Part shown: positions 3,062 to 12,764 of the stretch, one piece after another
How the letters are laid out: each line of letters begins with the position of its first letter
How positions within the stretch are numbered: position 1 is the first letter of the stretch
NCBI GenBank assembly: GCA_035528575.1
Contig: DATKYK010000020.1
Location: 1-64,000, forward strand
Origin: Dehalococcoidia bacterium
GTDB taxonomy: Bacteria > Chloroflexota > Dehalococcoidia > E44-bin15
Direction of reading: 5' to 3'
Length of the DNA stretch: 64,000 nt
The notes under the pieces: model-generated
Told to the model about the DNA's origin: nothing
The model's input: the letters and a program-made list of their open reading frames with translations, nothing else
Database searches by the model: none
Made by a program: the position numbers and the translations under genes

Positions 3062-3127
3062 GTGCACACAAATGAACAGAGCACAATTTGCCTAGTTTGG
3101 TATTTAATATAAAGCTGAGGGATGACT

Positions 3128-4891
3128 ATGAAGAAGTTCAGATGTACCGTTTGCAATTACATATATGATGAAGCGAAAGAGGGCAGGGAGTTTTCAATAC
3201 TAACAGATGATTGGACTTGCCCGGTATGCAATGCTCTCAAGAATGCCTTTGTACCACTCTCAGAAGATCGCAAGGAAATACCTTCTAAACAGAAGACTGT
3301 ATCTGATGTGCTAGTTGAACAAATGGCAGAGTGGGGTATAAATTACGTCTTCGGCGTACCTGGAACATCCTCATTAGGGTTGGTGGATGCTATCAGAAAA
3401 AATGCGAGACTGAAATACTACCAAGTACGACATGAGCAAACAGCCGCCTTTATGGCATCGGCTTATGGAAAGCTCACTGGACATATAGCTGCCTGTCTGA
3501 CTGTGGCAGGGCCTGGCGCGGTTAACCTCGCTACTGGTCTGTATGATGCTAAGTTAGATCATGCTCCGGTATTGGCTATAACCGGATTAGTAAAGAGGCA
3601 GTTGATTGGGCCTGGATCATTTCAGGAAATAGACCAACATTCCTTTTTTGAACCTATATGTGTATTCAATAAAGTCCTTATGTCGGAAGATCAGACAACG
3701 AGCTTGGTAACTCTAGCAATCAAGCATGCTTTGGTTGATAGAGGTGTTTCACACATTAGTGTACCCAATGATCTTCAGAAGCTTCCATATAATGGGAACG
3801 TTTTGCCCATGCAAGGTAGAATCCCTAATAGAAATATCTTGCAGTGCGATCTGCTTATTAAGGAAGCGGCTTTGGTCATCAATAATACGAAAAGGCCTGT
3901 AATAATAGCTGGGTTTGGTGCTATAGACCAGGGGAACAAATTACTGCAACTTGCAAAAAAAATTTCCTCTCCCATTGTGACTACATTTCGGGGTAAGGGA
4001 GTTATTGATGAAGAAAATGAACTGTATGTAGGAAGCCATGGGACAATTGGATCGACTGCTGCTGCTAGGCTAGTGCGAGAGAGCGACTTATTGATAGTGA
4101 TTGGATCGTCATTCTCCGATATGACCCAAATACCACAAAAGAGAATAATACAGATAGATATAGATCCAATGATGATAGCTAAGAATTACCCTGTAGAGGT
4201 TGGATTATGGGGCAACAGTGCTGAACTCATACCGAAACTCACTGAAGCTGTTAAGAAAAAACCAAATACCGAGTACCTGGCTGAAATAACCAGACTAAAG
4301 GGGGAATGGGTTTCTCAACTGATTCGAGAAGCTGATGCATCAAGAACCCCAATAAGACCGCAATACATAATCAAAGTACTGAATGATAGAATAGGCAGTG
4401 ACGCTGTGATTTCCTTAGACGTAGGAGAGAACGGCTGGTGGTTTGGCAGGAATTTCTGGATGAAACAAACTCAGAAAATGGTCATGTCAGGTTATTTAGC
4501 TTCAATGGGTGCTGGGTTGCCCGGAGCTATGGCAGCACAGATTGCATATCCAGATAAACAAGTTGTATGTATTACAGGTGATGGAGGGTTCTCAATGGTA
4601 ATGGGTGACTTCCTTACTGCTGTGAAATATGCGTTGCCTGTTAAGGTTATACTCTTTAACAACAAGCAACTCGGCATGATTATGCAGGAGCAGAAGGTTG
4701 AGAATTATCCTAATTGGCAGACAGACCTATACAATTGCGATTTTGCGGAATATGCGCGCAACTGTGGCGGACTCGGGATTAAGGTGGTGGATCCTAAGGA
4801 GCTCGATAGTTCTATTGAAAATGCACTATCATCCGACATGCCAGTTATTGTAGACATAGATACCGATCCGAGGAGATTCATTAGAAGCTGA
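3128..4891 (+). CDS. Rubredoxin domain fused to a thiamine-diphosphate 2-oxoacid enzyme
   Basis: 587 residues from the preferred ATG at 3128. An ATG at 3122 is also open, but the GAGG at about 3116-3119 is too close to it, and MKKFRCTVC matches usual rubredoxin starts. Residues 1-50 form a rubredoxin fold with two CxxC pairs (CTVC and CPVC). The rest is a complete TPP enzyme of the acetolactate synthase/pyruvate oxidase superfamily: HEQ with the catalytic glutamate near residue 100, a GPGSFQEIDQ segment resembling pyruvate oxidase, and the GDGGFSMV TPP/Mg motif with its downstream Asn. Inference: a flavin-dependent 2-oxoacid oxidase that passes electrons to its own rubredoxin. Acetolactate synthase, decarboxylase or oxidase activity cannot be separated from sequence. 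The gene is AT-richer than later housekeeping genes. Confidence 0.88.
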   Translation: MKKFRCTVCNYIYDEAKEGREFSILTDDWTCPVCNALKNAFVPLSEDRKEIPSKQKTVSDVLVEQMAEWGINYVFGVPGTSSLGLVDAIRKNARLKYYQVRHEQTAAFMASAYGKLTGHIAACLTVAGPGAVNLATGLYDAKLDHAPVLAITGLVKRQLIGPGSFQEIDQHSFFEPICVFNKVLMSEDQTTSLVTLAIKHALVDRGVSHISVPNDLQKLPYNGNVLPMQGRIPNRNILQCDLLIKEAALVINNTKRPVIIAGFGAIDQGNKLLQLAKKISSPIVTTFRGKGVIDEENELYVGSHGTIGSTAAARLVRESDLLIVIGSSFSDMTQIPQKRIIQIDIDPMMIAKNYPVEVGLWGNSAELIPKLTEAVKKKPNTEYLAEITRLKGEWVSQLIREADASRTPIRPQYIIKVLNDRIGSDAVISLDVGENGWWFGRNFWMKQTQKMVMSGYLASMGAGLPGAMAAQIAYPDKQVVCITGDGGFSMVMGDFLTAVKYALPVKVILFNNKQLGMIMQEQKVENYPNWQTDLYNCDFAEYARNCGGLGIKVVDPKELDSSIENALSSDMPVIVDIDTDPRRFIRS

Positions 4892-5267: not shown

Positions 5268-5789
5268 ATGAAAGAAAGAAAAGCAGTCGTAACTTTCCAT
5301 GGCAATCCACTAACGTTGCTGGGGCCAGAGATCGAAGTGGGGCAGAAGGCGCCTCATTTCAGACTATTGTCAACAGATATGAAGGAGGTAGAGCTATCGC
5401 AAAGCGGAGGCAAGATCAGGCTTCTCAGCGTCGTACCGTCCCTGGATACGCCGGTCTGCGACCTGCAGACGCAGAGATTTGAAAGCGAGGCGAGCAACTT
5501 CAGGGATGTGGTCATATATACGATAAGCATGGACTTGCCTTTTGCCCAAGCCCGCTACTGTGGTGCACACGGTATTAGCAACCTGCAGACTCTTTCTGAT
5601 CACCGTGAAGCGTCTTTTGGCGCTGCCTACGGGGTTTTAATCAAGGAACTGCGCCTACTTGGCCGCGCAGTTTTCATTATCGACCGCAATGACACTATAC
5701 GATACGTTGAGTACGTGAAAGAGGTTACACAGCATCCTGACTATGATAAGGCGGTTGAGGCTCTAAGAGAAGCAGTCGCCGCAAATTAG
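5268..5789 (+). CDS. tpx: Thiol peroxidase (Tpx, atypical 2-Cys peroxiredoxin)
   Basis: 173 residues, normal for Tpx. The active-site segment PSLDTPVCDLQTQRF carries the peroxidatic cysteine, and ARYCGAHGIS carries the resolving cysteine about 35 residues later, the Tpx-specific arrangement. It reduces hydrogen peroxide and organic peroxides in the cytoplasm using thioredoxin. The ATG at 5268 is preceded by AAGGA. The redox neighbours (rubredoxin fusion, cytochrome b5 remnant) fit an oxidative-stress or electron-transfer neighbourhood in an anaerobe. Confidence 0.95.
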   Translation: MKERKAVVTFHGNPLTLLGPEIEVGQKAPHFRLLSTDMKEVELSQSGGKIRLLSVVPSLDTPVCDLQTQRFESEASNFRDVVIYTISMDLPFAQARYCGAHGISNLQTLSDHREASFGAAYGVLIKELRLLGRAVFIIDRNDTIRYVEYVKEVTQHPDYDKAVEALREAVAAN

Positions 5790-11700: not shown

Positions 11701-12561
11701 TCACCAGTCCATCATACCCCCGTCCATGTGATCCCACATTCCACCCCGAGGATTGGTAGGTGCTTGGCTTCCATCCTCATGTGTGTGATAGCCTTCCTCG
11801 TGGCATGGCATGTAGCCAAAGCCTTCGCTGTGTATATCCTCGGCTGCTTCAGCCATTGCACCCCCGTCACCAACCTCACAGGCTTCGTGCATATCTTCCC
11901 AGAGCTCTTTATTAAAAGGAGCTCTTCGGATGGGGCAATTGGCACGATGGCACAGTTGGCAGCTCTGAAAGGAAGTCTCCGAAGAAAAAAGGATACCTGT
12001 AACTGACATGTCCGGTACCATTACAAGTGAATCCGTCAACCTTACACCAATAAGCCTTTCAACATCACTAAAAATGGAAAATAATTCCTTCAGTTGTTCG
12101 ATGGGCCATACACTAGCATCACCGGAACCCGGGTTCATGGTGGATAAATCAGATACTTTATAACGCTCTTTTATTTGCTCTATCAAATACTGAATACTGG
12201 TTTGCAGGAGGTTCAGTTTGATGTAATACAGCCAGACTTTCTTCTCTAAATCGTCATTTTCTATCACAATTTCATCAATTTCGGTACCACATGTCGCAAT
12301 ATATGGAAATACACGGTTAACCGAATCAAGGTTTGTCCTTAAAGCGAGGCTGGTAAATGTAACATCCTCTATTGTGATGGAATCAGTATCTTTATTGTCT
12401 ATGAAGGAAACTTTATATAGGGCTTTCGGTTTTCCAATCTCTTGTACTACACTAACGAGCTCTTCCAACTCTCTACTGAGACTAGTACCTAAGTTAATAT
12501 GAAGCGTTTCAGACAGCTGGTCGGAATTCAGATTAAACGGAATGTCAGTTATCGAGATCAT
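11701..12561 (-). CDS. B12-dependent methionine synthase activation domain-like protein with His/Met-rich tail
   Basis: 286 residues from the ATG at 12561; GGAG lies six bases before it, whereas the longer frame to 12594 has no ribosome site and overlaps the upstream gene. The centre (MNPGSGDASVWPIEQ, GVRLTDSLVMVPDMSVTG) resembles the activation domain of cobalamin-dependent methionine synthase, here freestanding as in many anaerobes. Such modules support reductive reactivation of B12 enzymes. A cysteine cluster follows (SCQLCHRANCPIRR), then an unusual tail rich in His, Met, Gly and Asp ending WDHMDGGMMDW, which looks metal-binding. Whether it serves methionine synthase, a corrinoid methyltransferase or metal storage is open. 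Confidence 0.75.
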   Translation of the reverse strand: MISITDIPFNLNSDQLSETLHINLGTSLSRELEELVSVVQEIGKPKALYKVSFIDNKDTDSITIEDVTFTSLALRTNLDSVNRVFPYIATCGTEIDEIVIENDDLEKKVWLYYIKLNLLQTSIQYLIEQIKERYKVSDLSTMNPGSGDASVWPIEQLKELFSIFSDVERLIGVRLTDSLVMVPDMSVTGILFSSETSFQSCQLCHRANCPIRRAPFNKELWEDMHEACEVGDGGAMAEAAEDIHSEGFGYMPCHEEGYHTHEDGSQAPTNPRGGMWDHMDGGMMDW

Positions 12562-12584
12562 ATGCACTCCAAAATGTGCTGTGT

Positions 12585-12764
12585 CTATCCCCATCTATCC
12601 GCAAGGATCTTCCCAAGACGCTTGTATCCGGCCGACGGAACCCATTTCTTCATCCAGTCTTCAACAGCCGTGAGACCATCCGGATGTTGTTCCCTTATAG
12701 CCTCTATTTCAAGTGATGCATCGTTGGCTGCGTCGTCCATCGCTTTTGGATCGAAGTCTGGCAT
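12585..12764 (-). CDS. Small conserved-looking protein, function unknown
   Basis: 59 residues beginning MPDFDPKAMDDAAND, acidic then amphipathic, with HPDGLTAVEDWMKKW near the middle. The ATG at 12764 is preceded by AGGAGGGGAGAC, a strong ribosome site; the longer frame to 12815 lacks one. It lies 23 bp before the B12-activation-like gene and is likely co-transcribed with it. No family was recognised. Confidence 0.65.
   Translation of the reverse strand: MPDFDPKAMDDAANDASLEIEAIREQHPDGLTAVEDWMKKWVPSAGYKRLGKILADRWG

Follow-up and report, generated by a model that had tools for sequence, protein, structure and literature searches.

A single open reading frame of the Dehalococcoidia bacterium assembly GCA_035528575.1 joins a rubredoxin (Rd) to an enzyme dependent on thiamine diphosphate (ThDP, TPP), which raises the question of where the electrons of such an enzyme would go. 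The frame lies on contig DATKYK010000020.1, in the 64,000-nucleotide stretch that was analysed as a whole (the window). The known routes of 2-oxoacid oxidation use ferredoxin, NAD, quinone or O2 as acceptor.

Gene architecture and family distribution

The open reading frame covers positions 3122-4891 of the plus strand and encodes 589 amino acids, or 587 when translation begins at the ATG at 3128. A GAGGG element is spaced 2 nt from the ATG at 3122 versus 8 nt from that at 3128, and the second methionine is the start in most homologues, hence the start at 3128 chosen in the initial annotation is judged to be the better one. Residues are numbered from the ATG at 3122 throughout. The features are:

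3115..3119, plus strand: GAGGG, which probably serves the ATG at 3128 as ribosome-binding site (read directly; spacing)
3128..4891, plus strand: coding sequence of the rubredoxin-pyruvate oxidase (Rd-POX) fusion, 587 aa (589 aa from 3122)
3134..3250, plus strand: rubredoxin domain, residues 5-43 (PF00301, 32.4 bits, gathering cut-off 23)
3143..3154, plus strand: first CxxC knuckle, C8 and C11 (Cys in 42/42 full-length rows)
3218..3229, plus strand: second knuckle, CPVC, C33 and C36 (Cys in 42/42 full-length rows)
3260..3295, plus strand: linker, residues 47-58, identity 0.22 and variable length (residues 48-55 with pLDDT <50)
3296..3643, plus strand: TPP_enzyme_N (Pyr) domain, residues 59-174 (PF02776)
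3434..3436, plus strand: catalytic Glu105 of HEQ (Glu in 42/42; aligned with E. coli PoxB (EcPoxB), Lactobacillus plantarum pyruvate oxidase (LpPOX) and Corynebacterium glutamicum PQO (CgPQO))
3608..3637, plus strand: GPGSFQEIDQ, with Q168 invariant and F167 variable
3857..4240, plus strand: TPP_enzyme_M, central FAD-type domain, residues 246-373 (PF00205)
4418..4858, plus strand: TPP_enzyme_C (PP) domain, residues 433-579, GDGG at 486-489 (PF02775)
4676..4690, plus strand: M519-E523, Glu523 being the POX position and Trp in acetolactate synthase (AHAS) (alignment with EcPoxB, LpPOX, CgPQO and AHAS)
5268..5789, plus strand: thiol peroxidase (Tpx-type), next gene downstream after a 376 nt gap (PRK00522, 211.9 bits, cut-off 123), linked by position only

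One protein therefore holds, in this order, a short true rubredoxin, a linker that is not conserved and an entire ThDP enzyme belonging to the POX branch. The rubredoxin and complete TPP enzyme that the initial annotation had read in this frame were borne out by Pfam (PF00301; TPP_enzyme_N, _M and _C, all above cut-off), and the motifs it had named were all located (C8-C11, C33-C36, HEQ at 104-106, GPGSFQEIDQ at 163-172 and GDGGFS at 486-491).

The search for further copies that it had recommended revealed a widespread family, with members in many anaerobes among both bacteria and archaea, rather than a singular event. A scan of 84,980 species returned 76 loci. Besides the window, the Rd-POX family accounts for 46 of these, at 57-91% identity; 41 of them are full length, frame breaks divide 3 and contig ends truncate 2. 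This family size is a lower bound because the scan uses short exact patterns. One clostridial locus (L051, 36% identity) also has an N-terminal Rd, and in the remaining 29 of the 76 the match starts at residue 33 or later. As the 41 other full-length homologues come from separate records and share the architecture, the fusion is neither a chance product nor an assembly chimera; conservation counts are based on 42 full-length rows. According to the record titles, the hosts are Dehalococcoidia, Methanocellales, Methanobacteriaceae, Bathyarchaeota, Altiarchaeota, Methanomethylicus, Pelotomaculum/Desulfotomaculaceae and Actinobacteria, a patchy, domain-crossing distribution of the kind that lateral transfer would be expected to produce. 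Within the own class, matches at E<=1e-100 were obtained in 10 of 294 genomes, comprising four with the Rd-POX family (one as a fragment lacking the N-terminus, one in two pieces), two with Rieske fusions and four with neither domain. An Rd-POX frame split in two was seen at L019, L027, L044 and on contig C110 of genome G160 (L088, L095), and may reflect assembly error or decay.

The catalytic part and its place in the pyruvate oxidase branch

The best match to the fusion in both sequence and fold is E. coli PoxB (pyruvate:ubiquinone oxidoreductase; 3eya, 3ey9), which is ~30% identical and agrees with it in the order of the ThDP/FAD domains, in the catalytic and active-site Glu and in the FAD motifs. 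A PDB search with a profile of 39 family members placed PoxB first (379 bits) and L. plantarum pyruvate oxidase next (340 bits). PoxB (3eya) was likewise the best fold match to the AlphaFold2 model (mean pLDDT 89.8, pTM 0.85), with Z 46.1, rmsd 2.1 and 518 residues aligned in structure-alignment rows that cover residues 54-589, a result that is not decisive by itself because AHAS has the same fold. Among the NCBIfam models, PRK08611 (pyruvate oxidase) ranks highest with 517.6 bits, below its cut-off of 742; the whole-protein score stays below the respective cut-off for each of the 25 models listed, therefore the protein is not a catalogued equivalog. In a tree of 40 catalytic domains, including 17 of the 43 aligned Rd rows, a branch supported at 96/99 unites the fusions with PoxB, PQO and LpPOX, with AHAS and glyoxylate carboligase (Gcl) outside. 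The N, M and C ThDP domains, the catalytic Glu, the GDG motif, the active-site Glu and the phylogenetic place all agree with the POX branch.

In the central domain, G264, G266, K292, H306, G307 and S330 are invariant in 42/42 rows and D346 is kept in 41/42. The FAD motifs of the fusion, taken as the counterparts of the PoxB segments annotated as FAD-binding, align with EcPoxB, CgPQO and LpPOX and are kept across the family, so that the motifs of the FAD site, whose absence the initial annotation had named as a possible objection, are present by alignment, and a flavin site of the POX type is predicted. The two other characterized relatives differ from the fusion in their acceptors or carriers: C. 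glutamicum PQO (9ev3-9ev6) shares the POX fold and the Met and Glu at the positions of 519 and 523, but is quinone-linked by name and has no rubredoxin, while L. plantarum pyruvate oxidase (1pow, 4fee) shares the fold, the catalytic and active-site Glu and the FAD domain, but has no carrier. The latter passes its electrons to O2 and produces acetyl phosphate. A route from acetyl phosphate via acetate kinase was rejected for the own genome (96% complete), in which no acetate kinase was found.

The fusion and PoxB differ at both ends. PoxB has no N-terminal carrier, and its C-terminal membrane tail serves quinone reduction. In the fusion, 0-11 residues follow residue 579 in the 42 rows, and residue 587 of the model pairs with residue 533 of PoxB (572 aa), hence the C-terminal quinone/membrane tail, the mark of the quinone-reducing PoxB/PQO subgroup, is absent, and an Rd is present at the N-terminus instead. 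Pyruvate is the likely substrate. However, only 20/42 rows retain F167, the Phe in the FQE motif, and the active site has a distinctive WWFGRN segment in place of the PoxB sequence, so the substrate may differ.

The N-terminal carrier and its exchange

The Rd is of the short-loop form, with 21 residues separating the two CxxC knuckles, and PDB rubredoxins, including short chains of 45-46 aa (e.g., 6nw0, 6rxn), match the first 47 residues (from 3128) with E down to 1.8e-11. W31, F43 and the four cysteines are invariant (42/42 rows), positions 13 and 15 are Tyr, Phe or Trp in 42/42, Phe24 is kept in 41/42 and position 6 is aromatic in 40/42. The domain thus has the two knuckles and the aromatic core of the rubredoxin class, and an Fe(Cys)4 redox centre is predicted. 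The mean pairwise identity is 0.67 for the Rd and 0.69 for the enzyme core versus 0.22 for the linker, the length of which spans 13 residues, indicating that Rd and enzyme are under like constraint and the tether is free. An electron shuttle would need just this combination of a conserved carrier and an unconstrained tether; the mere metal-free regulatory domain that had been considered as a counter-explanation is at odds with an Rd that is conserved like the enzyme and keeps all its cysteines.

The strongest new evidence on the role of this module comes from the sister clade of Rd-POX (support 97/95), in which a Rieske [2Fe-2S] domain occupies the N-terminal place of the Rd. The Rieske domain precedes the POX part at L089 and L090 (PF00355, 50.9 bits, cut-off 20.3, in P0002), and the ligands CxH...CxxH are present in 6/6 Rieske rows. 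Like Rd-POX, these proteins, which occur in Dehalococcoidia, in haloarchaea and on a Mycobacteroides plasmid, have an N-terminal one-electron carrier and a tail-less C-terminus, but the carrier is a Rieske domain and the identity is ~40%. Five of the ten matching plasmid records carry Rieske-POX, four of them haloarchaeal and one from Mycobacteroides, with the annotation "thiamine pyrophosphate-binding protein" only; viral contigs searched for the Rieske form gave no match. One member inside the Rieske clade (L096) has an open reading frame without a Rieske domain, and the Rd-fused clostridial L051 groups with L048, which has no carrier. A single Rd clade was rejected (AU test, p 0.007, in a tree that contains long branches), which argues against one origin of all Rd fusions and for carriers having been attached or exchanged more than once. 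Two unrelated one-electron carriers have thus become attached to one catalytic lineage, in which at least one more gain, loss or exchange has taken place. Mainly because of the exchange of Rd and Rieske, the N-terminal module is read as an electron exit rather than a structural domain, a role that is well supported by comparison.

A literature search for Rd-ThDP or Rieske-ThDP fusions, with subscription papers mostly outside its scope, recognised no description of either. The FDP-rubredoxin-NROR oxidase of Trichomonas offers a likeness in that its Rd is an internal relay from a flavoenzyme to an iron enzyme on one chain, but this protein is NADH-fed and contains no ThDP enzyme (PMC9364112). 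Our best call is that Rd-POX is a variant within the POX family and that the fusion is apparently new.

Electron acceptors and competing explanations

We consider it probable that the protein is a soluble ThDP/FAD 2-oxoacid oxidase whose tethered N-terminal Rd relays flavin electrons to soluble iron proteins. A 2-oxoacid, most likely pyruvate, would be oxidized by the ThDP/FAD unit, the flexibly tethered Rd would take the flavin electrons singly and pass them on, and the Rd would thereby replace the membrane/quinone arm of E. coli PoxB. The intramolecular Rd acceptor put forward in the initial annotation is partly supported and is the best-supported reading, given the POX branch, the FAD motifs, the missing PoxB tail and the Rieske sister clade; pyruvate is a presumed substrate, in view of F167 and the WWFGRN segment. 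Rubredoxin potentials lie near 0 V, so that transfer from pyruvate to Rd would be strongly downhill and useless for the reduction of NAD(P) or ferredoxin, which favours O2, peroxide or another oxidizing acceptor. In anaerobes, the likeliest end acceptors would be Rd-dependent O2/peroxide reductases (rubrerythrin, flavodiiron protein and superoxide-reductase-type proteins), and the 2-oxoacid would directly pay for the removal of O2 and reactive oxygen species (ROS). The feeding of rubrerythrin and superoxide reductase by Rd is established, according to the titles of work that PMC3317640 cites.

The genomic neighbourhood makes a role in O2/ROS defence plausible, if thinly supported. Besides the thiol peroxidase in the window, a rubrerythrin lies +99 bp downstream of Rd-POX at L017, the next gene at L008 is desulforedoxin-like (PF06397) and the second gene downstream at L014 is a peroxiredoxin, so that O2-defence neighbours occur in 4/47 loci of the main family (window counted), each kind once, and the total is 6/47 when the two loci with a divergent Rieske ferredoxin (L009, L027) are included. 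No operon partner conserved across the whole Rd-POX family was found, and the neighbourhood varies for the most part. Redox genes of other kinds neighbour the bathyarchaeal copies, and trp genes lie beside some methanogen copies, which speaks against a defence role. Comparison of near and far neighbours gave only slight redox enrichment among the first 25 families; this tally (93/118 near clusters, with the L014 peroxiredoxin added by hand since its cluster had the Tpx of the window as representative, vs 94/118 sampled far clusters) is weak because of the restriction to those families and the prior exclusion of proteins >700 aa. RUBY_RBDX matched two near members, one of them the L017 rubrerythrin. 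In the own genome (G000), contig C24 carries several rubrerythrin-family matches close to a free rubredoxin and a flavodiiron-type (ODP) match, at ~52-72 kb; no superoxide reductase was found in this genome. The C24 cluster (L005, L105, L107-L112, L122) forms an O2-defence island of this genome.

Three other explanations have to be weighed. That the protein is a carboligase, or another ThDP enzyme without redox function, resembling acetolactate synthase and carrying a structural FAD and an accessory Rd, would be in line with the scores of AHAS models against the fusion (359-380 bits), with the fold shared with AHAS and with Met519, which is common to AHAS and CgPQO. However, the hallmark residues of AHAS, which we take to be the Arg of RFDDR and the Trp of QW, are replaced by S/A/C/L at position 329 and by E523 (presumably E483 of LpPOX) in 42/42 rows, the fusions fall outside the AHAS clade, and the own genome has a separate AHAS (L002; TIGR00118, 796 bits, above cut-off) beside what is presumably ilvD. 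These residues, the tree and the separate gene rule out acetolactate synthase itself and make the broader explanation very improbable. That the Rd serves as a metal domain with a structural or sensory role, holding Zn or acting as a redox/O2 switch in an enzyme that makes direct use of O2 or of a free carrier, is somewhat easier to entertain, since Zn can occupy Rd folds and two members of the wider clade, L048 and L096, have no N-terminal carrier, but the retained aromatic core, the flexible and unconserved linker and the replacement of the Rd by a redox carrier of another fold, the Rieske domain, make it improbable.

The remaining explanation agrees that the Rd is an electron exit and places it in a biosynthetic or redox-balancing circuit, in which the electrons would reach an FMN-containing glutamate-synthase-like enzyme or a flavoprotein/Nfn-like module encoded nearby. 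The relevant genes are:

L016 2205-3704 and L032 9933-11435: DUF2769-Glu_synthase-type genes (PF01645), euryarchaeal, with shared gene order (Pfam run on the L016 copy only)
L118 4724-8341, L119 ~4.8-8.7 kb, L103 6959-14676 and L121 6962-12021: pairs of Rieske-POX and glutamate-synthase-like genes

At L016 and L032, the DUF2769-Glu_synthase-type gene lies directly downstream of Rd-POX, at 6 bp and 156 bp, respectively. In two Dehalococcoidia genomes, Rieske-POX is found beside a glutamate-synthase-like FMN protein with its own Rieske-type segment (L118, at ~34 bp, and L119), and the same gene pair occurs further apart on haloarchaeal plasmids (L103, L121); the Rieske-type segment of the partner is N-terminal and was read in L118, L119 and L103. 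Across 72,556 plasmid records, Rieske-POX is present in 5 and this Glu_synthase clade in 8, and 3 records, all haloarchaeal, contain both. For redox balancing, 12 loci have a set of pyridine-nucleotide-disulphide-type flavoprotein, Nfn-like subunits and FlpD in the vicinity of the fusion; L037 is one of them, and the other 11 are among the 22 titled Bathyarchaeota. Against this, the Glu_synthase gene accompanies 2/47 Rd-family loci, the common gene order of L016 and L032 may go back to a single event, the plasmid overlap comes from one lineage, and an Rd would be too oxidizing to reduce NAD(P) or ferredoxin. Such a circuit is unlikely for the Rd fusion, yet the glutamate-synthase-like protein is the chief rival among candidate end acceptors.

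Returning to the tethered carrier as a relay to soluble iron proteins, a wider scheme can be put forward tentatively. The clade may have dropped quinone and O2 in favour of exchangeable N-terminal carriers, with Rd in strict anaerobes, where the 2-oxoacid would be the direct reductant for peroxide and O2 removal, and Rieske in the sister group (including haloarchaea and a mycobacterial plasmid), where it would form a two-enzyme circuit with the Rieske-carrying, FMN glutamate-synthase-like enzyme. Methanobacteriales are not known to contain quinones. If the Rd acts as proposed, it would constitute a further electron route, usable by quinone-less cells such as these, and would create a direct link from central carbon to O2/ROS defence, while the swap of Rd and Rieske on one catalytic core provides a ready comparison for how an electron exit is chosen.

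Some further observations concern the surroundings of the gene. Rd-POX lies near tryptophan-biosynthesis genes in several methanogen records (L006, L016, L032, L035, L046) and near transketolase in two others (L012, L022). Elsewhere in the window, the minus strand encodes an ABC-transporter ATPase with an N-terminal topoisomerase-type zinc ribbon (1178-2311; PF01396, 32.5 bits, cut-off 32) and a short protein (11701-12594) with a weak match to PF02965, the B12-dependent methionine synthase activation domain (26 bits, cut-off 25), and a C-terminus rich in His and Asp.
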